From NCBI RefSeq assembly GCF_026339875.1, contig NZ_JAPEPZ010000001.1, forward strand, positions 9,424,001 through 9,488,000: a stretch of 64,000 nt of DNA, read 5' to 3'. This document shows positions 24,111-43,030 of this stretch, one piece after another. A model generated the notes under the pieces. It saw only the letters and a list, made by a program, of their open reading frames with translations. It was not told the DNA's origin and made no database searches. Numbering within the stretch: the first letter of the stretch is position 1; each line of letters begins with the position of its first letter. Source of the DNA: Streptomyces sp. NBC_01571 (GTDB taxonomy: Bacteria > Actinomycetota > Actinomycetes > Streptomycetales > Streptomycetaceae). A program made the translations under genes and the position numbers.

Positions 24111-24557
24111 ATGCCGAACACCGCGCGCTGGGCAGCGACTCTCACCCTCGCGGCCACCGCCGTCTGCGGGCCCCTCGGAGGGTCCGCCCTCGCCGCCCCC
24201 GCCCCCGCCCCCGCGCTCGCCCCGTCCGGGCTGTACGCCCCCTCGGCCCTGGTGCTCACCACGGGCCACGGAGAGAGCGCCGACACCGCGACCCCGGAAC
24301 GCGCGGTCACGCTGAACTGCGCGCCGACCGCCTCCGGCACCCACCCCGCGGCCGTCCAGGCCTGCGCCGAACTCCGGGGAGCCGGCGGCGACTTCGATGC
24401 CCTCTCGGTCAGAGACGGCGTCTTGTGTACGAAGCAGTTCGATCCCGTGGTCGTCACGGTCGCCGGTGTCTGGCAGGGCAAGCGCGTCGCGTACGAACGG
24501 ACCTTCGCCAACGAGTGCGTGAAGAACTCCTACGGGACGACCGTCTTCACGTTCTGA
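24111..24557 (+). CDS. Secreted subtilisin inhibitor (SSI) family protein, P1 = Lys
   Basis: 148 residues, the usual precursor size. The start at 24111 is chosen because GGAAGG lies nine bases upstream; an in-frame ATG at 24102 sits too close to the motif. Signal peptide [20 protein letters not shown] followed by an Ala-rich cleavage region (about residue 29). SSI core: [37 protein letters not shown], and the reactive-site loop [15 protein letters not shown]. Cys70/85 and Cys106/136 are the two family disulfides. By alignment to SSI (CPMVYDP) the P1 residue is Lys108 and P1' Gln109, so it should inhibit trypsin-like as well as subtilisin-like proteases. Such inhibitors control extracellular proteolysis around aerial growth. 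Confidence 0.93.
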
Positions 24558-29212: not shown

Positions 29213-32026
29213 TCACGCCAACTGCCGTCGCACCAGTTCGTGCAGCCGTCCGCCCGTGTCCGCGAGCAGCCGCGCGGGAGGCCCCTGCTGGGCGACCCGG
29301 CCGTCCTCCATCACGATCACCCGGTCCGCGTCCATGACCGTGGACAGCCGGTGCGCGATCACGACCCGGGTGGCGTTGAGCGCCCGGGTGCTCTCGATGA
29401 CCGTGCGCTGGGTCTCGTTGTCCAGGGCGCTGGTTGCCTCGTCGAAGAAGAGGATGCGCGGGCGGCGGATCAGCGCCTGGGCGATCATCAGGCGCTGGCG
29501 CTGCCCACCCGAGACCGCGCCGCTGCCGGAGACGATCGTGTGCAGCCCCATCGGCATCCGCCTGATGTCCTCGGCCAGGCCCGCCATCTCGGCCGCCGCC
29601 ATCGCCTCTTCGGGGGTGTACGGCTCGGTGCCGCAGATGCAGTCCAGGACGGAGCCGGTGAACGGCTGCGCGTGCTGGAGCACGACACCGCACTGACGGC
29701 GCACGGCGGACTGGTCGAGGGCCGCCAGGTCCTGGCCGTCGTACAGCACACTGCCCGAGACCGGTTTGTCGAAGCCGATGAGCAGCCTCAGCAGCGTGGA
29801 CTTGCCGCAGCCGCTGGGGCCGACGATCGCCACGAACTCGCCCGCCCGGATGTCGAACGACACGTCGTCGAGGACGAGCGGGCCGTCGTCGGAGTACCGG
29901 AAGGAGAGCCTGCGGGCCTCGATGGCCCCGGACAGCACGCCGGGGCGGGTGCTCGCCACCCGGACCTCCGGGGTGGCGTCGAGCACCGGCTTGATCTCCT
30001 CGAACATCGGCAGCGCGGCGGCCGCCGAGACGAAGGCGCCGGTCAGCTGGGTGACCGAGGTCAGCAGCATGGTCACCGAGGTGTTGAAGGTGAGGAAGTC
30101 CGCGGCCGACAGGGATCCGCTCGCCGGGCCGGCGAGCAGCATGAACATCAGCAGGGAGCAGAGCGGCAGATAGACCGCTCCCAGCACCGTGGTGAGGTTC
30201 TTGATGCGGCCGACCTTCCGCTGGAGTTCACGGCTGCGCGCGAACTCGCCCGCCCAGGCGGCGTACGCGTAGTTCTCCGCCGCCGCGACCCGCAGTTTGG
30301 GCAGTCCGCGCAGGGTCTGGAACGCCTGGTTGTTCAGCTTGTTGCCGAGCACGACCAGCCGCCGCTGCCACCGCACCTGCCACAGACCGAGCCCCAGGAA
30401 CACGGCCGCGATGACGACGAGCATGGCGACCGCTGCCAGCGCCATGGGCACGCTGTACCAGAGCAGCAGCCCCAGGTTCATCGCGCCGACCGTGCCGGCC
30501 TGCGCGAGTGTGGGGCCGACGCCCGCGAGGAGTCGTCGGATCGCGCTGATTCCCATGGCGGCACTGGCCAGTTCACCGGTCGAGCGCGAGGTGAAGAACT
30601 TCGTCGGCAGCCGCAGCAGCCGGTCCCACACGGCCGGTTGCAGCGTCGCCTCGATCCGCCCCTCCATCCGCAGCAGCGTGAGGTTCTGCAGCAGCATGAA
30701 CGCCGCCGACACCACGCTGGTGATCATGATCGCCAGGCAGACCTGCACGATGAGTCCGTGCTGGGCCTTCGGCACGTACTCGCCGAGCACCTTGCCGGTC
30801 GCGATCGGCACCAGGGCGCCGATCGCCACGGTGACGAGACCGCTGACCGCGAGGTTGCGCAGATCGCCGCCCGTGCCCTGGAGACAGAACCGCGCCAGCC
30901 GCAACGGGCTCAGCCGGCGCTCGGGCAGCGGCCGGTAGAACATCACGGCCCGCGGCTCGAACTCGGCCGCGTTGGCCTTCTCGACCGGCGTCTCCCGCCC
31001 GGACGACGGCTGTACGGCCACATAGCCGCCGCGCCGCCACAGCAGCGCGACCGGGCTGCCCGACACCGCACGCCGGCCCACCAGCGGGCCGATGTCGTCC
31101 CGCCACCAGGGCCCGTCCAGGCGCACCGCACGACTGCGGACGCGCGAGGCCAGCGCGATCCGCTCCACCGGGTCGATCCTGTCGCTCTCCGTGCCGCTCT
31201 GCGCCGGCTCGGCGAGCGTGATCCCGGACGCGCGGGCGACCAGCGCGCAGGCCGTGTAGGTGGCGTCCGTGTCGGCCGACGTAGGACGCTTCGAAGCCGT
31301 CCCCATGGATGCGAGCAGGGTCCGGTCGGCCTGGGCGCGGACGGCCTCGCCCGCCTTGATGCCCGCCGCCGTCCGGTCCTCGTGACGGGCCTCCAACTGC
31401 TCGATCCAGCGGTCCAGCGTGGCCAGCAGCCGGTACTGCTGGTCGACCATGCCCTGCCACACACCCGAGTCCATCAGCAGGTCCGCCGCGGCCTCCGCCC
31501 CGTACAGCGAGCCGTACTGCACACTCCCCGGCGGCACCTGCATCCAGAAGACGTCGTCGTCCGTGAGCGCGGCCGCGTTCTCCGTGGCCGTGGGAGCCTG
31601 GAAGAGGATGGAGAGGCTGCGGCCGACGCCGAGCGCGAGGGCGTACTCCAGCGGGCTCGATGTCGGCGGCACGTACTGGGGGTTGCCGTACTCGTCGTAG
31701 GACCAGGTCTCGGTGGGGACCGGCTGGTACAGCTCGCGCAGCACGATCCGGCGTACCGCGCAGTCCCGCAACGGCCGCCCGACCAGCGTGTGCTGGGGAC
31801 CCGCGACCGGGCCGAGCAGCAGCGAGCCCGCTTCGAGGCGGCCGAGGTGGTGCCAGTGGCCCTGCTGGGCGGCGTCGACCGCGAACAGGTCCAGGGCGCC
31901 CGCGACCACCAGCCACAGGACCTGCGGCCCTTCCAGGTCGAGGCGGTTGAGCCCGGCGCAGTCGACCGGCGTACCCATCGTGCCGAGCGCGCCGAGGACG
32001 ACGTCGCCCTCGTGAACCGTCGTCAT
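29213..32026 (-). CDS. NHLM-type bacteriocin export ABC permease/ATPase (no peptidase domain)
   Basis: 937 residues. Residues about 1-300 are a long N-terminal region without C39 peptidase, as in the permease-ATPase member of NHLM (nitrile hydratase leader microcin) export systems. Six membrane helices follow (about 400-690), with RLLRLPTKFFTSRSTGELAS in the first intracellular loop. The ATPase has Walker A GPSGCGKST, signature VSGGQRQRL, Walker B ILFFDEATSALD and a switch His in VVIAHRLSTV. Last gene of the cassette; its ATG lies one base after the stop of the C39 transporter. With that protein it probably forms a heteromeric exporter for the 71-residue peptide encoded at the operon's front. 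Confidence 0.87.
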   Translation of the reverse strand: MTTVHEGDVVLGALGTMGTPVDCAGLNRLDLEGPQVLWLVVAGALDLFAVDAAQQGHWHHLGRLEAGSLLLGPVAGPQHTLVGRPLRDCAVRRIVLRELYQPVPTETWSYDEYGNPQYVPPTSSPLEYALALGVGRSLSILFQAPTATENAAALTDDDVFWMQVPPGSVQYGSLYGAEAAADLLMDSGVWQGMVDQQYRLLATLDRWIEQLEARHEDRTAAGIKAGEAVRAQADRTLLASMGTASKRPTSADTDATYTACALVARASGITLAEPAQSGTESDRIDPVERIALASRVRSRAVRLDGPWWRDDIGPLVGRRAVSGSPVALLWRRGGYVAVQPSSGRETPVEKANAAEFEPRAVMFYRPLPERRLSPLRLARFCLQGTGGDLRNLAVSGLVTVAIGALVPIATGKVLGEYVPKAQHGLIVQVCLAIMITSVVSAAFMLLQNLTLLRMEGRIEATLQPAVWDRLLRLPTKFFTSRSTGELASAAMGISAIRRLLAGVGPTLAQAGTVGAMNLGLLLWYSVPMALAAVAMLVVIAAVFLGLGLWQVRWQRRLVVLGNKLNNQAFQTLRGLPKLRVAAAENYAYAAWAGEFARSRELQRKVGRIKNLTTVLGAVYLPLCSLLMFMLLAGPASGSLSAADFLTFNTSVTMLLTSVTQLTGAFVSAAAALPMFEEIKPVLDATPEVRVASTRPGVLSGAIEARRLSFRYSDDGPLVLDDVSFDIRAGEFVAIVGPSGCGKSTLLRLLIGFDKPVSGSVLYDGQDLAALDQSAVRRQCGVVLQHAQPFTGSVLDCICGTEPYTPEEAMAAAEMAGLAEDIRRMPMGLHTIVSGSGAVSGGQRQRLMIAQALIRRPRILFFDEATSALDNETQRTVIESTRALNATRVVIAHRLSTVMDADRVIVMEDGRVAQQGPPARLLADTGGRLHELVRRQLA

Positions 32027-32027
32027 C

Positions 32028-34250
32028 TCATCGCTCCCTGACCAGCTCGGCGTACGGACCGCCGGCCGCCACCAGGGCGTCGTGCCGCCCGCGTTCCACG
32101 ATCGTGCCGTGCTGGAGCACCACGATCTCGTCGCTGTCGCGCACGGTGCTGAGCCGGTGCGCGATCACCACACAGGCGCAGCCGCGCTTGCGCAGGTTGT
32201 CGATGACGGTCTGCTCGGTCTCCGCGTCCAGCGCGCTGGTCACCTCGTCGAGGACCAGGATGCTGGGCCTGCGCACCAACGCCCGTGCGATCTCCAGCCG
32301 TTGGCGCTGGCCGCCGGAGAAGTTGCGGCCGTCCTGCTCGACCCGGCTGTGGATGCCGCCGGGGCGGCGCACCACGACGTCGTACAGGGCCGCGTCCCGC
32401 AGCGCGGCGACGACGGCGTCGTCCGGGATCGACGGATCCCACAGCGCCACGTTGTCGCGGACCGTGCCCTCGAAGAGGAAGACGTCCTGGTCGACGAAGG
32501 AGACGGAGGCCGCGAGTGCGCCGCGCGGGATGTCCTCCAGCAGTTGCCCGTCGATGCGGATCGTGCCTTCCCAAGGGGTGTACAGGCCTGAGATCAGCCG
32601 GGACACCGTGGACTTGCCGCTTCCCGAGCCGCCCACCAGTGCCACCTGCCGGCCCGGGCCCACGGTCAGCGAGAAGCCGGTGAGCAGCGGCTTGTCGAGC
32701 GGGCTGTAGCCGAACGTGATGTTCTCCAGCTCGACATGGCCGTGCAGCCTGCGGGTGGAGTCGCCGGTGCCGGAGCGGGCGTACAGCGGGTCGGCCTGGA
32801 AGTTCTCGACGTCCTTGAGGCGTGCCACGTCGGCCGCGAAGTCCTGGATGCGTCCCGCGACACCGTTGAGCCGGGTGAGCGGCGCGGTGAAACGGGTGAC
32901 GAGCGCCTGGAAGGCCACGAGCAGACCGACCGAGATGTGCCCCTCCATCGCCCGCAGACCGCCGATCCAGAGGATCAGCGCGCTGTTGAGGGTGGCGAGC
33001 GTCGGCGCGACCACTCCCAGCCAGGCACTCGGCACCCCGAGGCGCTGCTGTTCCTCGAGTGTGGTGGCGTGTTGCCCGGCCCACTTGCGGAAGTAGCCGT
33101 CCTCGCCGCCGGTCGCCTTCATGGTCTCGATCAACTGCAACCCGGTGTAGGCCGTGTTGGTGAGCCGGGCGCTGTCCGCGCGCAGTTTCGCCGTACGGGT
33201 CGCGCGCAGCCGGATCACCACCCGCATCGCGACCACGTTGAGCAGCGCGACACCGATACCGACCGCCGTGAGCTGCGGATCGTAGGTGTAGAGCAGGACG
33301 GCGTAGAGCACCACGACGACCGCGTCGACGCCCGCCGCCGCGAGGTCTCGGGCCAGGGTCTCGGCCACCGCGTCGTTCGACTGCAGCCGCTGCACCAGGT
33401 CGGCCGGGCTGCGCTGGGAGAAGAAGGTGACCGGCAGTCGCAGCAGATGGCGCAGGAAGCGTGCGCTGCTGAGCGTCGATGAGATGATCCGGCCGTGCAG
33501 CAGGTTCGCCTGCTGGAGCCACGTCAACAGCACGGTCAGCAGGACACAGGCACCCATCGACGCGAAGAGCACGCCGAGCAGCGAGGTCTGACCGCCGATC
33601 AGGTAGGTGTCGATGTAGGTCCTGCTGAGCGCGGGCACCGCCGCGCCGACCGCGACCAGCAGCAGGCTGGCCAGCACGGCCGCGGGCATCGTGCCCGACG
33701 TGCCGCGCAGCCGGGCCGGCATGGCGCCGAGGATGCCGGGCCTGCGGCCGCCCTCGCGGAAGTCGGGGCCCGGCTCCATGACCAGCACCACGCCGGTGAA
33801 GCTGGTGTCGAAGTCCTCCATCGGCACGAAACGGCGGCCCTTGCCCGGGTCGTTGATGTGCACCCCGCGCCGTCCGAAACGGCGGCCCATTCCGTCGTAG
33901 ACGACGTAGTGGTTGAACTCCCAGAACAGGATCGCGGGCGCCTGCACCTCGGCGAGCGCGGCCGTGTCCATCTGCATGCCCTTGGCCGTGAGGCCGTAAC
34001 CGCGCGCCGCCTTGAGGAGATTGCTGGCGCGCGAGCCGTCCCGGGAGACACCGCAGGCGATGCGCAGCTCTTCGAGGGGGATGTACCGGCCGTGGTGGCC
34101 GAGCACCATGGCGAGGGAGGCCGCGCCGCACTCCACGGCCTCCATCTGGAGCACCGTCGGCGTGCGGACGGTCCTGCGGGTGCTCCTGGGGACCGTGCGC
34201 TTCGGCGGTGCGGCGCGCCGTCTGCCCCGGGTGTCCTGTGCGGTGGTCAC
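32028..34250 (-). CDS. NHLM-type C39 peptidase/ABC permease/ATPase
   Basis: 740 residues. The start is a GTG at 34250 that overlaps the HlyD stop (GTGA); upstream extension is not homologous. The C39 domain is complete: oxyanion Gln35 and nucleophile Cys41 in QMEAVECGAASLAMVLG, His114 in FNHYVVYDG, Asp134 in INDPGKG. It cuts leaders after Gly-Gly and then exports the peptide. Six membrane helices (about 190-480) contain LLRLPVTFFSQRSPADLVQ. ATPase: GGSGSGKST, FSGGQRQRLEIARALV, SILVLDEVTSALD. Second of three transport genes in the cassette; the peptide with the matching GG leader is encoded 1.1 kb upstream. Confidence 0.92.
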   Translation of the reverse strand: MTTAQDTRGRRRAAPPKRTVPRSTRRTVRTPTVLQMEAVECGAASLAMVLGHHGRYIPLEELRIACGVSRDGSRASNLLKAARGYGLTAKGMQMDTAALAEVQAPAILFWEFNHYVVYDGMGRRFGRRGVHINDPGKGRRFVPMEDFDTSFTGVVLVMEPGPDFREGGRRPGILGAMPARLRGTSGTMPAAVLASLLLVAVGAAVPALSRTYIDTYLIGGQTSLLGVLFASMGACVLLTVLLTWLQQANLLHGRIISSTLSSARFLRHLLRLPVTFFSQRSPADLVQRLQSNDAVAETLARDLAAAGVDAVVVVLYAVLLYTYDPQLTAVGIGVALLNVVAMRVVIRLRATRTAKLRADSARLTNTAYTGLQLIETMKATGGEDGYFRKWAGQHATTLEEQQRLGVPSAWLGVVAPTLATLNSALILWIGGLRAMEGHISVGLLVAFQALVTRFTAPLTRLNGVAGRIQDFAADVARLKDVENFQADPLYARSGTGDSTRRLHGHVELENITFGYSPLDKPLLTGFSLTVGPGRQVALVGGSGSGKSTVSRLISGLYTPWEGTIRIDGQLLEDIPRGALAASVSFVDQDVFLFEGTVRDNVALWDPSIPDDAVVAALRDAALYDVVVRRPGGIHSRVEQDGRNFSGGQRQRLEIARALVRRPSILVLDEVTSALDAETEQTVIDNLRKRGCACVVIAHRLSTVRDSDEIVVLQHGTIVERGRHDALVAAGGPYAELVRER

Positions 34251-35056
34251 GGAAGCAGCCAATCGACGGGACGCTGATCGGCCAGCCGGATCGAGCCCGT
34301 GGCCAGGGTCATGGAGGTCAGCGGGTACGGAGGCCCGTCCGCCGAGGACCACTTGAGGCCGCTCTTCGTACGGGACGAACGGTCGAGGGAGACCAGGACG
34401 GCCACCGGCCTGCCCTTCTTGGTGAACTGCTCGCCGAGCTGGCTGTCGCCGAGGGAGGAAGTGATCTGCTGCTGGGTCTGCACGCTCCGGCCGACCGCCT
34501 TCACATGACCGCGGAGCACCCCGTACCGCTGGGTCGGCACCGACTGGACGGTGAGGTCGACGGCGGCGTCCGCGGGGATGGTGGATGCGCTCTCGGCGGG
34601 CACGTACACCGTCGCGTAGAGCGGATCGCCGGCGTGCGCGACCTTCTCCACCGCGGCGACGTTCGCGCCGGTGGAGATGATGGCCCCGATGGTGGCGGCG
34701 AGGGCCGTGACGCGGCCGGCGGCCACGGTACGGACGACGGAGGTCTCGCCCTGGGCCGTACGGACCTTCAGCACCGGGGCGTCGGCCGCGAGCCGATCGC
34801 CCTCCTTGGCGAGGACCGCGGTGACCTGACCGGCGACGGGGCTCTGCAGGACGTAACTGCCCTGCGCGTGTGTGAGGACGGCGGGGGCACCGACCGTCGA
34901 GGCCACCGTGCCCGTCACGGCCCAGACCGACGCGGCCGCCATGACGACCACCGTCACGGACAGGACGAGCCAGCCCTGGGGGCGGGCGAAGCGCACCGGC
35001 AGGTCGAGTTCTTCGGCTGACTGCAGCTTGGCGAGGGCCTGTTGGCGGAACTGCAC
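34247..35056 (-). CDS. HlyD-like adaptor of the NHLM export system
   Basis: 269 residues. One membrane helix near the N-terminus (GWLVLSVTVVVMAAASVWAV) is followed by a biotinyl-lipoyl-like hairpin (YVLQSPVAGQVTAVLAKEGD, VAAGRVTALAATIGAIISTG) and a beta-barrel part (PLYATVYVPAESAS). This is the short form of the membrane fusion protein that accompanies NHLM exporters, without the long coiled coil. The N-terminal RQQALAKLQSAEELD is typical. It follows the peptide gene by 90 bp and overlaps the C39 transporter by four bases. Confidence 0.85.
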   Translation of the reverse strand: MQFRQQALAKLQSAEELDLPVRFARPQGWLVLSVTVVVMAAASVWAVTGTVASTVGAPAVLTHAQGSYVLQSPVAGQVTAVLAKEGDRLAADAPVLKVRTAQGETSVVRTVAAGRVTALAATIGAIISTGANVAAVEKVAHAGDPLYATVYVPAESASTIPADAAVDLTVQSVPTQRYGVLRGHVKAVGRSVQTQQQITSSLGDSQLGEQFTKKGRPVAVLVSLDRSSRTKSGLKWSSADGPPYPLTSMTLATGSIRLADQRPVDWLLP

Positions 35057-35146
35057 GGAACTTCCCTCACCTGTCGGAGAGATTTACGGCATCCGAGAGC
35101 CCCGGAACCGGGGAGTGGTTCCGGGACTCAGCGGGATGAGACGCGA

Positions 35147-35362
35147 TCAGAGACCGGCGACCAGGCCGGTGACCGGAGCGGTGTTCAGGCCGGTCACACC
35201 CTCGACGGTGCCGACGGCCGTGCCCACGAGGCCGGAAACCGGGGCAACGCCGTCGACCAGGCCGGTGACGGTGCCAACGGCGTTCAGCGACAGGCCGCCG
35301 GAGACGTTGTCGAGGTCCGCGTCCGAGATCTCGGCGGTGGCAACCTGGGGGGTGGAGTTCAT
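35147..35362 (-). CDS. Peptide precursor: GG leader plus cysteine-free VTGL-rich core
   Basis: 71 residues. The ATG at 35362 has AGGGAAG seven bases upstream. Leader residues 1-23 contain EISDADLDNVSGG, the double-glycine cleavage form of mersacidin-like and other C39-processed leaders. The predicted core (24-71, 48 residues) begins LSLNAVGTVTGLVDGVAPVS and ends NTAPVTGLVAGL. It is rich in Gly, Val, Thr and Leu, has two Asp/Glu, no Lys/Arg and no Cys. Four V-(T/S)-G-L units recur. Without Cys it cannot form lanthionines, and no modifying enzyme gene is adjacent. Automated calls of type A2 lantipeptide would rest on the leader only. The dedicated exporter follows on the same strand. Confidence 0.85.
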   Translation of the reverse strand: MNSTPQVATAEISDADLDNVSGGLSLNAVGTVTGLVDGVAPVSGLVGTAVGTVEGVTGLNTAPVTGLVAGL

Positions 35363-35841
35363 GGGGGAACTTCCCTTCGTATGGATATTCATAAGGGGGG
35401 AGCGGCCCCCTCTGGGGACAGATGACGGCCGCCACCGCGGGGGTGCGGATCCCGTGTCCGGGAGCCCTGCGGCTCCCGTCTCCGGAGGTGTGCCGCGACC
35501 TCCGCGGTGCACGGATCAAAGCACGGTCGCGGGGCACGTATCCAATCAACCAGGGCTCCCACCTGGGAACTTGAGCGCAGCTTCGGCCCAACCGTGCAGG
35601 CGTGCACACGTCTTTGCGGCCACTTCTTCACATGCTGCACGGCATTGTTTCGGCGCTGCCCTTGCCGCCCGGCGCGCCAATGGGACAGTCCCGTCCCAAT
35701 GGCGCGCGGGGGGGCGCGCGACTGTGCAGATCCGTCGCGCGCCGTGACGCGCCTGCGCATTCGATGTGCAGATTCGCTGAAGCAAGGATTCCGGCCCCGT
35801 TGGCGGACGGAGTGTCACCGGCCGTCAGCGGACGGTGTCGT
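35363..35841. promoter_or_regulatory. Long upstream region of the peptide-export cassette with two TGGGA palindromes
   Basis: No gene supported. Minus-strand promoter-like sequence lies at about 35530-35560 (GGTTGATTGGATACG). TCCCA-CC-TGGGA (35557-35568) is a 12-bp palindrome. A near-perfect 15-bp inverted repeat (35672-35686 and 35693-35707, one mismatch, 6-base loop) carries TGGGAC-N6-GTCCCA at its centre; it could be an operator or a terminator for the upstream thioesterase gene. An 8-bp hairpin (35459-35478) falls in the likely 5' leader. Confidence 0.5.
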
Positions 35842-36255: not shown

Positions 36256-36450
36256 ACGGGGCAGTGTTCCCCGGTCGGCCGGAGGAGAGACGCGGTCACC
36301 TCGTAATCCATGCCTTCGGCCGGGCTGACTCCTGCCTTTCTCAGAGGGAGTTGAACAACTCCTGCGACTCACACGTATCAACAGGCATCCAGGCGCCCCC
36401 CAGTCAGCCGCCGGACGGTGGCATCGACCCCGTCCCCAGGAGGTCAAGAG

Positions 36451-37770
36451 TTGAGTCACAAAAGGATTCCCAAGCGCAAGGCCGCCATCGCCGCGGGAAG
36501 CGTCGCGGCGCTCGGAGCGGCAGCGCTGCTGCTGCCCAACGCCAACGCCTCGCAGACCGACGCGAAGGACGCCGCTCCCAAGACGCTGAAGGCCGCGGAC
36601 GCCTCGGACCTCACCTCGCTCCTCGCCACCCAGCTCGGTGAGGCCTACGGAGGCGCGTACTACAACGCCGCCAAGCAGCAGGTCGTCGTCAACGTCGTCG
36701 GCGACGACAGCAAGGCGGTCGACGCGGTCAGGAAGGCCGGCGCTGTTCCCCGCAGCGTCGACAACAGCCTCGCCGCCCTCAAGTCCGCCGCCCGGACGCT
36801 GAAGACCGACGCGACCATCCCCGGCACCGCCTGGTCCGTCGACCCCAAGACGAACCAGCTCCGGGTCACCGCCGACAGCACGGTCACAGGTGCGAACTGG
36901 AGCAAGCTGACGTCGACGGTCGACTCGCTGGGTTCCGGCATGGCCACCGTCAAGAAGTCCGCGGGCACCTTCAAGACGTTCGTGGACGGCGGCGACGCCA
37001 TCTTCGGCGGCGGAGCGCGCTGTTCGCTGGGCTTCAACGTCACCGCCGGCGACGGCAGTCCCGCCTTCCTGACCGCCGGTCACTGCGGGGTCGCGGCCAA
37101 GCAGTGGTCGGACGCGCAGGACGGCGCGCCGATCGCCACCGTCGACCAGGCCACCTTCCCCGGTGACGGCGACTTCTCGCTCGTCAAGTACGACGACCCC
37201 AACACCCAGGCCAACAGTGTGGTCAACGTCGGCAACGGTCAGACCGTCGCCATCAACCAGGCCGCCGACGCCGCCGTGGGCCAGCAGGTCTTCCGGATGG
37301 GCAGCACCACCGGTCTCAACGACGGCAACGTCACCGGACTCGACGCCACCGTGAACTATCCCGAGGGCACGGTCACCGGACTCATCCAGACCGACGTGTG
37401 CGCCGAGCCCGGCGACAGCGGCGGTTCGCTCTTCACCCAGGACGGCAGTGCGATAGGCCTGACCTCGGGCGGCAGCGGCGACTGCACCGTCGGCGGCGAG
37501 ACCTTCTTCCAGCCGGTGACGACCGCGCTCACGGCGACCGGCGCGACGCTCGGAGCGGGCGCCGGGGCGGGTGCGGGCGGTGCGGGCGACGCGAGCGCCA
37601 CGGCCGGTGCCGAGCCCAGCGACCCCGCGGCGAGCGACCCGGCGGCCGGTGACCAGTCCGGGATGGGTGACCAGTCGGGGGCCGGCGGCGACCAGTCGGG
37701 TGCCGCGGGCGACAACCAGTCCGGCACCGGTGCGGACGACGGCTCCGGAATGGTGAGCTCGAACGGGTGA
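36451..37770 (+). CDS. Secreted S1 serine protease with propeptide (streptogrisin/alpha-lytic type)
   Basis: 439 residues from a TTG at 36451, six bases after AGGAGGT. Basic N-region and signal peptide (KRIPKRKAAIAAGSVAALGA) cut near Ala33; propeptide about 34-182 (chaperone-type prodomain); mature chymotrypsin fold from about IFGGGARCSLGFNV. Triad His211 (TAGHCGV), Asp241 (GDGDFSLVKY) and Ser323 (PGDSGGSLF); Cys191/212 and Cys317/345 would form disulfides. A C-terminal tail of about 70 residues is Gly/Ala/Asp-rich with GDQSG repeats, not present in short streptogrisins. Probably an extracellular protease, made as an inactive precursor. Strong terminator hairpin at 37831. Confidence 0.92.
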   Translation: MSHKRIPKRKAAIAAGSVAALGAAALLLPNANASQTDAKDAAPKTLKAADASDLTSLLATQLGEAYGGAYYNAAKQQVVVNVVGDDSKAVDAVRKAGAVPRSVDNSLAALKSAARTLKTDATIPGTAWSVDPKTNQLRVTADSTVTGANWSKLTSTVDSLGSGMATVKKSAGTFKTFVDGGDAIFGGGARCSLGFNVTAGDGSPAFLTAGHCGVAAKQWSDAQDGAPIATVDQATFPGDGDFSLVKYDDPNTQANSVVNVGNGQTVAINQAADAAVGQQVFRMGSTTGLNDGNVTGLDATVNYPEGTVTGLIQTDVCAEPGDSGGSLFTQDGSAIGLTSGGSGDCTVGGETFFQPVTTALTATGATLGAGAGAGAGGAGDASATAGAEPSDPAASDPAAGDQSGMGDQSGAGGDQSGAAGDNQSGTGADDGSGMVSSNG

Positions 37771-38101: not shown

Positions 38102-40243
38102 TCACGCGTGTGTCCGTGCCCGCAGCAGAAGCAGTGCCACGTCGTCGAGCCGCTCCTGCGTCAGCGCCCCGCTCTGCCGCACCAGGGTGTCGGCCAGCTC
38201 GTCGAGCGGCTGCTCGGGGGCGTCGCCGAGACGCTGCCCGAGGCCGGCCAGGGCGTCCTCGATGTCCACACCGGGGGACTCGATCAGCCCGTCGGTATAG
38301 AGGGCGAGCAGCGAACCGGGCAGCAGCGGGACCTCGGTCGTCTGGTACCTGGCGTCGGCGTCGATCCCGAGCAGCGGCCCGCCGGCCAGGTCGAGCACCC
38401 GCACCCGCCCGTCCGGCCGCCGCAGCAGCGGGGGCGGATGACCCGCGCGCGCCATGACCGCGACCTCACGGGCGGGATCGAGGCGCAGATAGAGACAGCT
38501 CGCGAACAGGTCGGTGCCCAGGTCGATCAGCAGCCGGTTGGTGCTGCGCATCACCTCCTCCGGCGGCTGGCCCACGGTCGTGTACGCGCGGACGGCGGTC
38601 CGGACCTGTCCCATCAGGGCCGCCGCGGTCACGTTGTGCCCCTGGACGTCGCCGATGACCGCCGCGGCCAGGCCGTGCGAGGGCATCAGGTCGTAGAAGT
38701 CACCGCCGATCTCCATGCCCTGAGTGGCCGGCAGATAGCGTGCGGCCGCCTCGATGAAGGGCAGCGACGGCAGGGTGTGCGGCAGCAGCGCGGCCTGCAG
38801 ACCGTGCGCCAGATGGAGCTTGGTGTCGTAGAGCAGCGCCCGTTCCAGCGCCTGCGCGACGAGCCCGCTCAGACTCGTCAGCACGGCCCGTTCGTCGGTC
38901 GGGAAGGAGTGCGGCTCCGCGTAGGCGAGGACGCAGGTGCCCAGCGGACGTCCGGACGCGATCAGCGGCAGGTACGCCCATGCGGCCATGCCGTCGGACG
39001 TCGCGTTCCGGGGCGGATACAGGTGCTCCAGTTGCGCGCGTGAGTCGAAGAAGGCGGGCACCCCGCTGTTGTGGGCGTGGGTGCAGGGGGACGGCGCGCT
39101 CAGCGACAGCCCGTCGAGGTGTTCCGCGACGTGGGTGTCCGGATACCCGCGGTGGCCGAGTACGTGCAGTCGGCCGGCCCGCGAGCCGAGCAGGATCAGC
39201 GCCCTGCTGCCGACAGCGGGCGCGATCTCGTCGGCGACCAGTTGCACCACGTCCTGCACGCTCGCGGCCTGGGTGAGCGCGCCGGCGAGGCTGAGCACAT
39301 GGGAGATGGTCACCAGGCGCGGGGCGTCCTCGTGCTGCGGCCCGGCGCGGTTCTCCTGCGCGACCGCCCTGGCCCGGGAGATGCGCACACTCAGCCCGGT
39401 CGTACTCGGATAGAGCCGGAACGACAGCCAGTCACCGGGCGGCCGCAGCGCCACGAACGACGTCACGTGCTGGCTGATCAGCGCGGCGCGGTAGCGGTCC
39501 TCGTAGACGGGATCGTTGAGCCAGGGCACCGACGCCCACAGCTGGGTGCCCAGCAGAGCGCTGACCGGCAGGCCGAGCATCTCGGCCGTCGCCGGGTTGG
39601 CGTAGCTGACCCGCCCGTGCAGATCCAGCGCGCACAGCCCGTACGGCAGCCGCGCCACCATCCGCGCCGCCTCCACCGTGCCGAGCGTGCCGGGGACCGG
39701 TGTGGCGGACGGCGTGAGCAGGTCGGGTTCCCGGCGGACCGGGCGGTGCTCCTCCGCGGCCCGCTCCAGGCGCAGCGCGAGCCTGTCGCAGGCCGCGGTG
39801 AGGTGGTCGCGCTCCCGGTCGGCGAGTTCCAGAGGGTGCGAGCCGGGCCACGTCACGAAGACGGCTCCGTACGTGGTCCGCGAGGTCGCGACCGGAAGGG
39901 CGGCGAGCGCGAAGGGGTACGGCAGGACCATGGCGATCCGGGGAAAGCGGCGGGCCATCTCCTCCCCGCCGCTGACCCAGACCAGTCGCCGCTCGCGCAC
40001 CGCGACGGCCACCGGGATCGGAGCGTTGAGCCCCACCCGCTCCCAGGGCGCCGCGAACGCCCGGGGCATGCCGGCCATCACCGCCATCTCCAGTACGGGT
40101 TCGCCGCTCGCCAGCAGGTACACCGCGCCGGAGTGGGCATGCACCTCCTCCACCAGCGAGGCCAGCGTCAGCGAGAGCAGAGGCCGCCCGACCTGCGTCG
40201 TACGGCCGGCCGGTGCCTGCACGGACCCCCGCCAGTCGGACAC
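38102..40243 (-). CDS. GAF-PAS-GAF-SpoIIE-type PP2C phosphatase
   Basis: 713 residues. The GTG at 40243 lies seven bases after GAGGAGGT and is preferred to upstream starts. Order: GAF-like region (about 20-185; LASLVEEVHAHSGAVYLLAS), PAS (about 210-310; LPYGLCALDLHGRVSYANPA), second GAF (about 330-475; VLSLAGALTQAASVQDVVQL), and PP2C/SpoIIE (about 490-713) with MEIGGDFYDLMPS, VIGDVQGHNVTAA, FASCLYLRL and LLALYTDGLIESPG holding the metal-binding Asp residues. It would dephosphorylate an anti-anti-sigma factor in response to ligands of GAF/PAS. There is no HATPase domain, unlike its divergent neighbour. Confidence 0.88.
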   Translation of the reverse strand: MSDWRGSVQAPAGRTTQVGRPLLSLTLASLVEEVHAHSGAVYLLASGEPVLEMAVMAGMPRAFAAPWERVGLNAPIPVAVAVRERRLVWVSGGEEMARRFPRIAMVLPYPFALAALPVATSRTTYGAVFVTWPGSHPLELADRERDHLTAACDRLALRLERAAEEHRPVRREPDLLTPSATPVPGTLGTVEAARMVARLPYGLCALDLHGRVSYANPATAEMLGLPVSALLGTQLWASVPWLNDPVYEDRYRAALISQHVTSFVALRPPGDWLSFRLYPSTTGLSVRISRARAVAQENRAGPQHEDAPRLVTISHVLSLAGALTQAASVQDVVQLVADEIAPAVGSRALILLGSRAGRLHVLGHRGYPDTHVAEHLDGLSLSAPSPCTHAHNSGVPAFFDSRAQLEHLYPPRNATSDGMAAWAYLPLIASGRPLGTCVLAYAEPHSFPTDERAVLTSLSGLVAQALERALLYDTKLHLAHGLQAALLPHTLPSLPFIEAAARYLPATQGMEIGGDFYDLMPSHGLAAAVIGDVQGHNVTAAALMGQVRTAVRAYTTVGQPPEEVMRSTNRLLIDLGTDLFASCLYLRLDPAREVAVMARAGHPPPLLRRPDGRVRVLDLAGGPLLGIDADARYQTTEVPLLPGSLLALYTDGLIESPGVDIEDALAGLGQRLGDAPEQPLDELADTLVRQSGALTQERLDDVALLLLRARTHA

Positions 40244-40585
40244 GCCGACCACCTCCTCGCAGGGCCGCGCCATGGCTCCCGGGGCCAGGGCGTGTGTGGC
40301 CCGTCCCGTCGGGCGGCCGGCGCCCGGCACGGCACCTCGCCGCGTGGCCGGATCACCCGGGTGCGTCCCCTCCGCGGGAGACCCTCCGCCGTGCCGCGGA
40401 CGGCCCGGACACCGCACGCCGATCCGGCACCAGGGGCCGGCCATGATCTAAGGCTCCCTCCTGGCGGCTCCCGCCGCACGGCGAGCGCCACGCGCGGCAC
40501 CCCGTACGGCTTCCGGGCCCCACCACAGGCCCGCAAGGTGCCGGAACGGTCACAGGGGCTGCGCGGGGGCTCCGGAAGCGCTGTA
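40244..40585. other. Divergent promoter region between two SpoIIE-type phosphatase genes
   Basis: 342 bp of GC-rich sequence without a supportable gene. Apart from the GAGGAGGT ribosome site of one gene and a GGAAG before the other, I see no distinct operator or hairpin. Confidence 0.4.
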
Positions 40586-43030
40586 ATGACGGACGTGGTC
40601 AGTGAGCGCGCTGCGGAACGCGGAACGCGGACGCTGCGTGCCGAAATCTCCCTGAAGACCCCCACGCCGGACCTCGATCCGCGCGAACGGCTGCGCCGTG
40701 TCCTCGAACAGGCGCTCGTTTTCGCCGGGGCGACCGTCGTCGCGGTGTACTCGCCCACGAAGAGGGGCGGCGAACTGCACCTGACCGAGTCGGCGGGTGT
40801 CCCCAGAACGCTCTACGGGCTGCGCGACAGCTATCTCCTCACCGGCAGTTCCCCCACGGTGGACGCGCACCGCTCGGGCCGGCCGCTGTGGCTCGGTCCG
40901 GAGGAGATCGGCCGCTGTGCCGAATCCCGTCGCCTGCCGTCCCAGGACTTCTGGCTGGCCGTGCTGCCGCTGCGGGACGCCGGGTGCCTGGTCGCGGTCA
41001 GTGAACGCCCCGGCGGCTTCGACAGCGAGGACAGGGAGTGTCTCGCCCTGATCGCCGAGGCCGCGGTCTGCCCCGCGCCCGGCTCGGCGACCGCCCCCGG
41101 CGCCCTGGCCGCCAGCGCCTTCGACCTCGCCATGGACACCGGGCACGTCGAGGTCGACGACGAGATGCTGGAGCTGTTCGGCCTGGATCGTGCCGAGTTC
41201 GACGGCAAGGTCGAGACCCTGCTGTCACTCACCGTCCCCGAGGACCTGCCCACCCTGATGTCCGTGGTCGAGGCGGACCACATGTCCATCGGGGAACGCG
41301 AGCTGGAGTTCCGCATCACACAGCCCTCCGGCAAGCCGAGGTGGCTGCGGCTGCGCGGCCGCATGGTGCCGGGAGGAGACGGCCGCCCGGCACGCCTGGT
41401 CGGTACGGTCGCCGACGCCTCGAAGCTCCGCTCCGGCGTCAGCGACGTGGCCCGCGTACAGCGGCTGGCCGCCGCCCTCGCCACCGCGGGCACCGTCCGG
41501 GACGTGGGCCGGGCCGTCGTGGCCGCGCTGCGGCGGCCCCTGCGGGCAGACCGGATCGCCCTCGCCGAGTTGGAGGGCGACCGCCTCGTCGTCACCGTCC
41601 TCGATCCGCCCGAACCGGCCGCCTGGCCGGAACTGTGGCGCTCCGAATGGCGTTCGGAGTGGCCCGACGCGCCCGTGCGCGCGATGCCGACGCTCGCGGC
41701 GGCCCTCAGCGAGGGACGCCCGGCCGTCTGGCCCGCCGGATCCCCGCTGGAACCCGCGCTCGCCGACGTCGGCCCCGGCGGCCTCGCCATCCTGCCGCTG
41801 CCCGCCGGCGGGCGCATGGCCGGAGCCTGTCTGATCGGCTGGGACGCCCCGCACGACTTCGGCCCCGACGAGCGCGCCCTGCTCACCGCGTCCGCGGGCC
41901 TCGCGGGCCAGGCACTCACCCGCGCCCGCTCCTTCGACGCCGAACACGAGCTGGTCACCACGCTCCAGCGCTCCCTGCTCCCGCGCCGGCTGCCCAGGCT
42001 TCCCGGCGCGGTCGCCGTCGCCCGCTACCTGCCCACCACGGCGGGACTCGAGGTCGGCGGCGACTGGTACGACGTGATCCCGCTGCCCGACAACCATGTC
42101 GCCCTCGTCATCGGCGACGTCCAGGGTCACAACGCCCAGGCCGCCACCCTCATGGGCCAGATGCGCACGGCCCTGCGCGCCTACGCCGTCGAGGGCCACC
42201 CGCCCGACGTCGTCGTCTCGCGCGCCAACCGGCTCCTCATGGACCTGGAGACCGACCTCTTCGTCACCTGCTGCTACGTCGAACTGGACATGGAGGAGGG
42301 GTCCGCCTGGTGCGTACGTGCCGGCCACCATCCGCCGGTACTGCGTCACCCGGACGGCACCACGGAGGTCCCCGACTCCGACGGCGGACCGCCGCTCGGC
42401 GTCGTCACGCAGGCCGAGTTCCCGATGACCCCACTGCGGCTGCGGCTGGGCACGGTCGTCGCCCTGACCACGGACGGTCTGGTCGAGTCCGCCGAGGTCG
42501 ACATCGAGGACGGCCTGAACCGGCTCGCCGGGGTGCTGGCCGCGTCCGACCCCGCGCACCTCGGGATGGTCGCCGACAGACTGCTCACCGGCGCCAACCG
42601 AAGCGACGACGTCGCCCTCCTCCTGATGCGCTACGACGGCATGTCGCTGCGCCCGCTCCGGGAGAGCTGGACGATCTGGCGCGTCCCCGAGGCCGTGCGG
42701 CACGCCCGCCGCTTCACCCGGCGCACGCTGCGGTCCTGGGGCGTGACCGACGACAGCATGGACACCGCGCTCCTGGTCGTCTCCGAACTCGTCACCAACG
42801 CCCTCGTGCACACCGGCGGCCAGGTCAGACTCGACCTCACCCTCATCAACCGGCTGCTGCGGATCGCCGTCGCCGACTCCTCGCCGCGTACGCCCATCAA
42901 GCCCACCAGCATCGGCTGGGAGGCCACCGGCGGCCGCGGCATCCTCCTCGTCGAGGCCACGTCGGCGGCCTGGGGGAGCCTGCCGGTCAGCGGCGGCAAG
43001 CAGGTGTGGAGCGAAGTCCTTCTCGACTGA
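40586..43030 (+). CDS. PAS-GAF-SpoIIE phosphatase-HATPase regulator
   Basis: 814 residues from ATG at 40586. Order: N-terminal GAF-like region (about 35-165), PAS (about 180-290; DLAMDTGHVEVDDEMLELFG), GAF (about 295-450), PP2C/SpoIIE (about 470-690; GLEVGGDWYDVIPLPDNHVA, VIGDVQGHNAQAATLMGQ, VVALTTDGLVESAE) and a C-terminal HATPase_c (about 700-814; VVSELVTNALVHTGGQVRLD, GGRGILLVEATS) of the RsbW anti-sigma kinase type. One chain thus joins sensor, phosphatase and kinase of a partner-switch system, the same plan as the broken gene at 3388-5771. It is divergent from a related phosphatase. Confidence 0.9.
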   Translation: MTDVVSERAAERGTRTLRAEISLKTPTPDLDPRERLRRVLEQALVFAGATVVAVYSPTKRGGELHLTESAGVPRTLYGLRDSYLLTGSSPTVDAHRSGRPLWLGPEEIGRCAESRRLPSQDFWLAVLPLRDAGCLVAVSERPGGFDSEDRECLALIAEAAVCPAPGSATAPGALAASAFDLAMDTGHVEVDDEMLELFGLDRAEFDGKVETLLSLTVPEDLPTLMSVVEADHMSIGERELEFRITQPSGKPRWLRLRGRMVPGGDGRPARLVGTVADASKLRSGVSDVARVQRLAAALATAGTVRDVGRAVVAALRRPLRADRIALAELEGDRLVVTVLDPPEPAAWPELWRSEWRSEWPDAPVRAMPTLAAALSEGRPAVWPAGSPLEPALADVGPGGLAILPLPAGGRMAGACLIGWDAPHDFGPDERALLTASAGLAGQALTRARSFDAEHELVTTLQRSLLPRRLPRLPGAVAVARYLPTTAGLEVGGDWYDVIPLPDNHVALVIGDVQGHNAQAATLMGQMRTALRAYAVEGHPPDVVVSRANRLLMDLETDLFVTCCYVELDMEEGSAWCVRAGHHPPVLRHPDGTTEVPDSDGGPPLGVVTQAEFPMTPLRLRLGTVVALTTDGLVESAEVDIEDGLNRLAGVLAASDPAHLGMVADRLLTGANRSDDVALLLMRYDGMSLRPLRESWTIWRVPEAVRHARRFTRRTLRSWGVTDDSMDTALLVVSELVTNALVHTGGQVRLDLTLINRLLRIAVADSSPRTPIKPTSIGWEATGGRGILLVEATSAAWGSLPVSGGKQVWSEVLLD

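Follow-up and report, generated by a model that had tools for sequence, protein, structure and literature searches.

A widespread Streptomyces export cassette for a cysteine-free GG-leader peptide probably also serves scattered peptides with a common leader and a promoter-like signature

Among described systems, the locus considered here most needs to be set beside SCO0753-0756 of Streptomyces coelicolor, which is described in PMC6629963 as having these same four genes in this order, with a cysteine-free peptide and conservation in many Streptomyces. According to that description, the four genes are overexpressed more than 60-fold under the Sco5282 D125G kinase allele and nearly silent in the null mutant, SCO0753 is the most overexpressed gene under that allele, alongside envelope and secretion genes, and effects at the hyphal surface are suggested. 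Two further papers class the S. coelicolor locus as a bacteriocin cluster, and a third counts sco0756 with the up-regulated efflux genes of a mannosylation mutant. A motif set for GarR (Sco5283) has also been published from in-silico work (PMC11043171). Outside Streptomyces, pneumococcal C39 peptidase/permease/ATPases (PCATs) are reported to export GG peptides with roles in communication and competition, one of them preferentially secreting a co-regulated set (PMC7018657). The pneumococcal PCAT/GG sets (RtgAB; ComAB, BlpAB) are the closest analogue we have seen for one exporter with a co-regulated peptide set, although the rtg peptides, as described, are encoded within rtg while the Streptomyces orphan peptides discussed below lie elsewhere in the genome, and the Streptomyces exporter adds a second NHLM-type ABC protein and an HlyD-like partner.

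In the window, by which we mean the whole stretch of 64,000 nucleotides that was analysed, the four genes all lie on the minus strand, as the first-pass annotation had it. The precursor gene (35147..35362) encodes 71 aa from an ATG start, with a leader of residues 1-23 ending in VSGG and a predicted 48-residue product from Leu24; residues 24-71 contain no Cys, and no Lys or Arg either, so that the claimed GG-leader precursor with a cysteine-free core is borne out. Behind it come the gene for the HlyD-like adaptor (34247..35056; 269 aa, GTG start; Pfam HlyD_3), the gene for the PCAT (32028..34250; 740 aa from GTG; Peptidase_C39 at 1.2e-34) and the gene for ABC2, a second NHLM-type ABC permease/ATPase (29213..32026; 937 aa). 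From the sequence we take the PCAT to start at the GTG whose overlap with the adaptor stop reads GTGA, the mechanically called open reading frame extending to 34352, and the ABC2 gene begins one base after the PCAT stop; the close linkage proposed for the transport genes is thus as described. All four genes occur together in 79 of 80 named loci (tblastn).

Both ABC proteins resemble NHLP/NHLM (proteusin-type) exporters, with NCBIfam scores above the curated cut-offs for ABC1 with a C39 domain (TIGR03796, 1014.6 bits against 853.3) and for ABC2 (TIGR03797, 898.7 bits against 709.4). The adaptor departs from this family, as its score of 141.3 bits with TIGR03794 is under the cut-off of 156.2, although that family is its best by far, and no modification enzyme was found beside the cassette. 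The leader also differs in being only 23 aa long, and one orphan leader scored 12.9 bits with TIGR03793, against 50.9. The precursor matches no NCBIfam or Pfam family at cut-off, and the four NCBIfam families that match it at E<=10 include no NHLP or Nif11-type leader.

The first-pass annotation had proposed the cassette as an undescribed system, and that proposal has to be withdrawn, since SCO0753-0756 by its description already has the genes, their order, the absence of Cys and the conservation. The likeness is drawn from the gene order and the hydrophobic, Cys-free peptide as described in PMC6629963, not letter by letter, and SCO0753 is given there as 77 aa, against 71 aa for the window precursor. 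Homologues of the precursor number 677 proteins at E<=1e-3; the best 120 of these share 86-97% identity with the query and cover 94-100% of it, those with an organism given are from Streptomyces, and many are titled 'type A2 lantipeptide'. One of the homologous peptides, at 90% identity, carries the name of S. violaceoruber. In a sample of 150 Streptomyces genomes the precursor is present in 96 (E<=0.01) and the adaptor in 109 (E<=1e-15). Across a class-wide sample of 197 genomes, a model of the leader matches 15 Streptomyces genomes and, weakly (E 0.003), one other; those 15 also hold adaptors of at least 60% identity, while remote adaptors turn up in six non-Streptomyces genomes (25-33%) and, in one case, as an additional copy (34%). 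A single plasmid record out of 72,556 carries the precursor. The cassette appears to be a known locus, common across Streptomyces, that secretes a small Cys-free peptide.

The name given to many of the homologues raises the question of modification. The claim that no modification enzyme lies next to the cassette agrees with a Pfam scan of the 14 called genes between 20.6 and 44.9 kb, which found no RiPP-modifying enzyme (one gene was without a family), and with a tabulation of neighbours at 123 cassette loci, in which the ten annotated representatives of the commonest clusters include no LanM, YcaO, LanB or radical SAM protein. The likeness to type A2 (class II) lanthipeptides lies in the style of the leader and in the NCBI name, while the cassette core has no Cys in any of 84 peptides and a class II LanM (PF13575, E<=1e-10) is absent from the window's genome; we therefore rejected the lanthipeptide reading. 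A broader version, in which the peptide is a RiPP because an enzyme with a gene at another place modifies it in trans, could draw on the same resemblance of the leader and on a haem-oxygenase-like protein and a small methyltransferase found in the fetched flanks of 33 and 27 of the 123 cassette loci, but these two genes are missing from most of the fetched loci and LanM is present in only 24 of 109 adaptor-positive genomes (absent in 85), and together with the Cys-free cores this makes modification in trans quite improbable.

Other frequent neighbours at the 123 loci are an alpha-lytic-type S1 protease, the commonest of all (87), SpoIIE/GAF phosphatases (78), Ppx/GppA (47) and MFS proteins (33). 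In the window, the alpha-lytic-type secreted S1 protease is at 36418-37770 (+), and a subtilisin-inhibitor-like (SSI) protein is encoded at 24111-24557 (+). SpoIIE/GAF/PAS sensor phosphatases, common at cassettes, are found here at 38102-40273 and 40586-43030. One further reading has a partner cell sense the peptides as signals, as happens with streptococcal GG pheromones. The ten annotated clusters of frequent neighbours contain no receptor-type gene, common though the sensor phosphatases are, and hydrophobic products of 48 residues are large for signals of the GG-pheromone type. Even with the precedent of pneumococcal PCATs that export communication GG peptides, one of them a co-regulated set (PMC7018657), we consider a signalling function very unlikely.

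The cassette had also been called self-contained, which overlooks unlinked peptides in its relatives that have nearly the same leader and the same upstream signature. They came to notice as second matches to the precursor, in stretches with no exporter. We call a precursor an orphan if its leader scores at least 18 bits and the adaptor is absent from the fetched stretch (usually 6 kb per side, shorter at contig ends), and by this definition there are at least 50 single-gene orphan precursors from 41 genomes, beside 85 cassette peptides; these counts cover listed and fetched matches, and weaker matches fall outside them. Several peptides per genome with a common GG leader thus occur in relatives, while the window's own genome (11.54 Mb) has a single listed leader peptide and no orphan, an extra match at E 0.56 being taken as chance. 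The orphan cores fall by eye into several groups with no evident similarity to the cassette core. None of ten orphan entries (one of them a leader only) scores above cut-off with any NCBIfam model, and on inspection of two called genes per side we saw no neighbour common to different orphan families. One locus (L047:5352-6195) has a tandem pair of leader precursors ahead of one exporter.

Class II bacteriocins typically come with a PCAT and a GG leader, and the cassette might be an unmodified bacteriocin of that type with its exporter, the orphans being more bacteriocins of the same arsenal. The orphan cores are diverse and fast-evolving, some score weakly, and never up to the cut-off, with models of class IIb or CTB bacteriocins, and in one orphan group 7 of 11 members have, 30-101 nt downstream on the opposite strand, a gene for a protein of 108-119 aa without a Pfam family, for which an immunity role is conceivable. 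Composition tells against this reading. Counting 84 of the 85 cassette peptides (one with a frameshift-like tail was left out, and His was not counted in the charge), 82 cores are without Lys or Arg and no core carries a net positive charge; among the 50 orphan cores only one is net positive, 49 are not, and 34 are without Lys or Arg (nine have one Cys). The lack, within two called genes per side, of a neighbour shared between orphan families also speaks against it, as does the mean identity of 86.5% among 78 distinct cassette cores, which would be unusually stable for a bacteriocin. On balance we find the bacteriocin reading unlikely.

In the cassettes, dN/dS is about 0.48 for the core (78 distinct cores), 0.28 for the leader and 0.18 for the C39 gene, and the cassette core is under purifying selection. 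The precursor has a pS of about 0.17, against 0.29-0.33 for the exporter genes, or about half their synonymous divergence, perhaps a result of expression-linked codon bias. In two orphan families the core dN/dS is 1.56 and 0.97, values that are rough because synonymous divergence is low. Values near or above 1 might be expected if the orphans were decaying duplicates that only retained the leader and the promoter, and one orphan family does have stretches of 5' UTR in common with the cassettes. However, two orphan families comprise 344 and 32 homologous proteins (the listed ones being mostly Streptomyces 'hypothetical protein' entries), and open frames, leader and box spacing have been retained over unrelated cores, leaving decay a slim prospect. 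AlphaFold models of the cassette peptide and of one orphan family (pLDDT 58.7 and 47.2) were too poor for a fold search.

Upstream of the cassettes and of most orphans we found the signature TGG-N16/17-GTGCTTTGATC. In the window, the promoter-like box GTGCTTTGATC is at 35514..35524 (-), the sole match there at up to one mismatch, and the upstream box TTGATTGG is at 35542..35549 (-), 17 nt before it; this match taken alone is not significant, as 34 of 100 shuffles hold at least one match at up to one mismatch. The evidence comes from comparison. On the sense strand of the 300 nt upstream, GTGCTTTGATC is exact at 56/85 cassettes and 24/50 orphans and present at up to one mismatch at 69/85 and 35/50, while the other strand of those upstream regions has none and control random windows of the orphan loci gave 0/9176 and 0/9100. 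When two mismatches are allowed, the box is found at 78/85 cassettes and 42/50 orphans against 107/9222 control windows, so that it is absent from 15 of the 50 orphans at one mismatch and from 8 at two. A TGG precedes the box by 17 nt at 65 of 69 cassette sites; of the 35 orphan sites, 26 have it at 16 nt and 6 at 17 nt. When all 10-mers ahead of the 50 orphans were counted without guidance, GTGCTTTGAT came out as the joint commonest (24). That the spacing is fixed and the orientation always the same points to a promoter rather than a palindromic operator.

Genome-wide, the exact 12-mer CGTGCTTTGATC has 106 matches in the 150 genomes, whereas the reversed pattern has 5. For 93 of the 106, a leader peptide begins 42-152 nt further downstream; 72 of these have an adaptor within 2.5 kb (cassettes) and 21 have none (orphans). 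The remaining 13 have no leader in the following 600 nt, 12 of them lack a TGG at a spacing of 16 or 17, and they fall in adaptor-positive (8) and adaptor-negative (5) genomes as expected of background. Outside the 150 genomes from which the box was defined, seven cassettes have five exact boxes and two with one mismatch, and three orphans have boxes with 0, 1 and 2 mismatches. Among named cassette loci, which may overlap the 150 genomes, the box is exact in 63/79 and within one mismatch in 75/79. We infer that a single sigma factor or activator reads the signature and that this common upstream sequence regulates cassette and orphans alike, although box and leader could instead be common by descent alone. 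The passages of PMC6629963 on SCO0753-0756 make no mention of orphan peptides or of a shared box; a literature search for scattered GG peptides in Streptomyces found no earlier description among the matches listed, and the listed matches to a text search for the letters of the box were all outside Streptomyces by title.

Some loci differ from this pattern. One orphan family (L035, L044, L045, L050 and L122) lacks the box with one mismatch allowed, and has in 5/5 members a gene cluster 108-127 nt downstream, of which the tested representative has a sigma-70 region 2. In two genomes from other genera of the order (L163, L164), an unrelated gene is preceded by TTGACTGG and then, at wider spacing, CGTGCTTTGATCCAT. 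Between signature and precursor, the 5' UTR (35363..35450, minus strand; alignment of 31 sequences) is conserved. A hairpin is predicted in it (GCGGCC/GGCCGC), as is a second pairing, which would mask the Shine-Dalgarno region; there is next to no covariation, the term being only -0.14 kcal/mol over the 31 sequences, and the structure is a prediction.

The leader model matches 109 of the 150 genomes and the adaptor likewise 109, with both in 107 (Fisher 4e-31, a value that overstates independence because the genomes are related), but the model was built from leaders of these same genomes and the agreement arises largely because a cassette brings its own leader peptide. Of the 41 adaptor-negative genomes, 39 have no leader; the two with a leader alone are an assembly only 79% complete and a match at E 0.054, and the two with an adaptor alone have adaptors of 45% and 34% identity that perhaps belong to other systems. 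What bears on export in trans is the distribution of the orphans themselves, which come from 40 of the 109 adaptor-positive genomes and from one of the 41 adaptor-negative ones, that one being the 79% complete assembly (Fisher 7e-6, again among related genomes).

From these sequence comparisons, we think it likely that the cassette exports both its own unmodified GG peptide and the unlinked orphans, and that it and most orphans are switched on together through the shared promoter-like signature. The C39 domain would cut the precursor after Gly23, and the C39-ABC, ABC2 and HlyD-like proteins would export a 48-residue product that is hydrophobic, anionic and unmodified. Where orphans exist, the same exporter would handle their precursors in trans, and the cassette and most orphans would be turned on at the same time by the bipartite signature. 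This suggests one exporter serving dispersed, co-regulated, unmodified and mostly anionic peptides rich in Gly, Ala and Val. For their role, action at the hyphal surface or in the envelope during vegetative growth seems to us the likeliest, a preference we hold tentatively; an envelope or hyphal-surface role fits best and a classical cationic bacteriocin poorly, although the fast change of the orphan cores counts against a purely structural role.

The cassette itself is known, and the possible novelty is that it stands as the hub of a dispersed, co-regulated peptide set, the exporter in many relatives probably serving scattered peptides with a common leader and promoter signature as well. A fuller picture, for and against which we see the case as evenly balanced, is a widespread, dispersed Streptomyces regulon in which one NHLM-type PCAT, a conserved hub peptide and a lineage-specific unlinked set under one promoter class, with an exact 12-mer nearly confined to it, would provide a lineage-specific surface coat. 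The signature TGG-N16/17-GTGCTTTGATC offers a means of finding further members of such a regulon, and a locus that is commonly classed as a lantibiotic or bacteriocin cluster becomes the likely centre of a regulon for peptide secretion in a genus of major importance for antibiotics.
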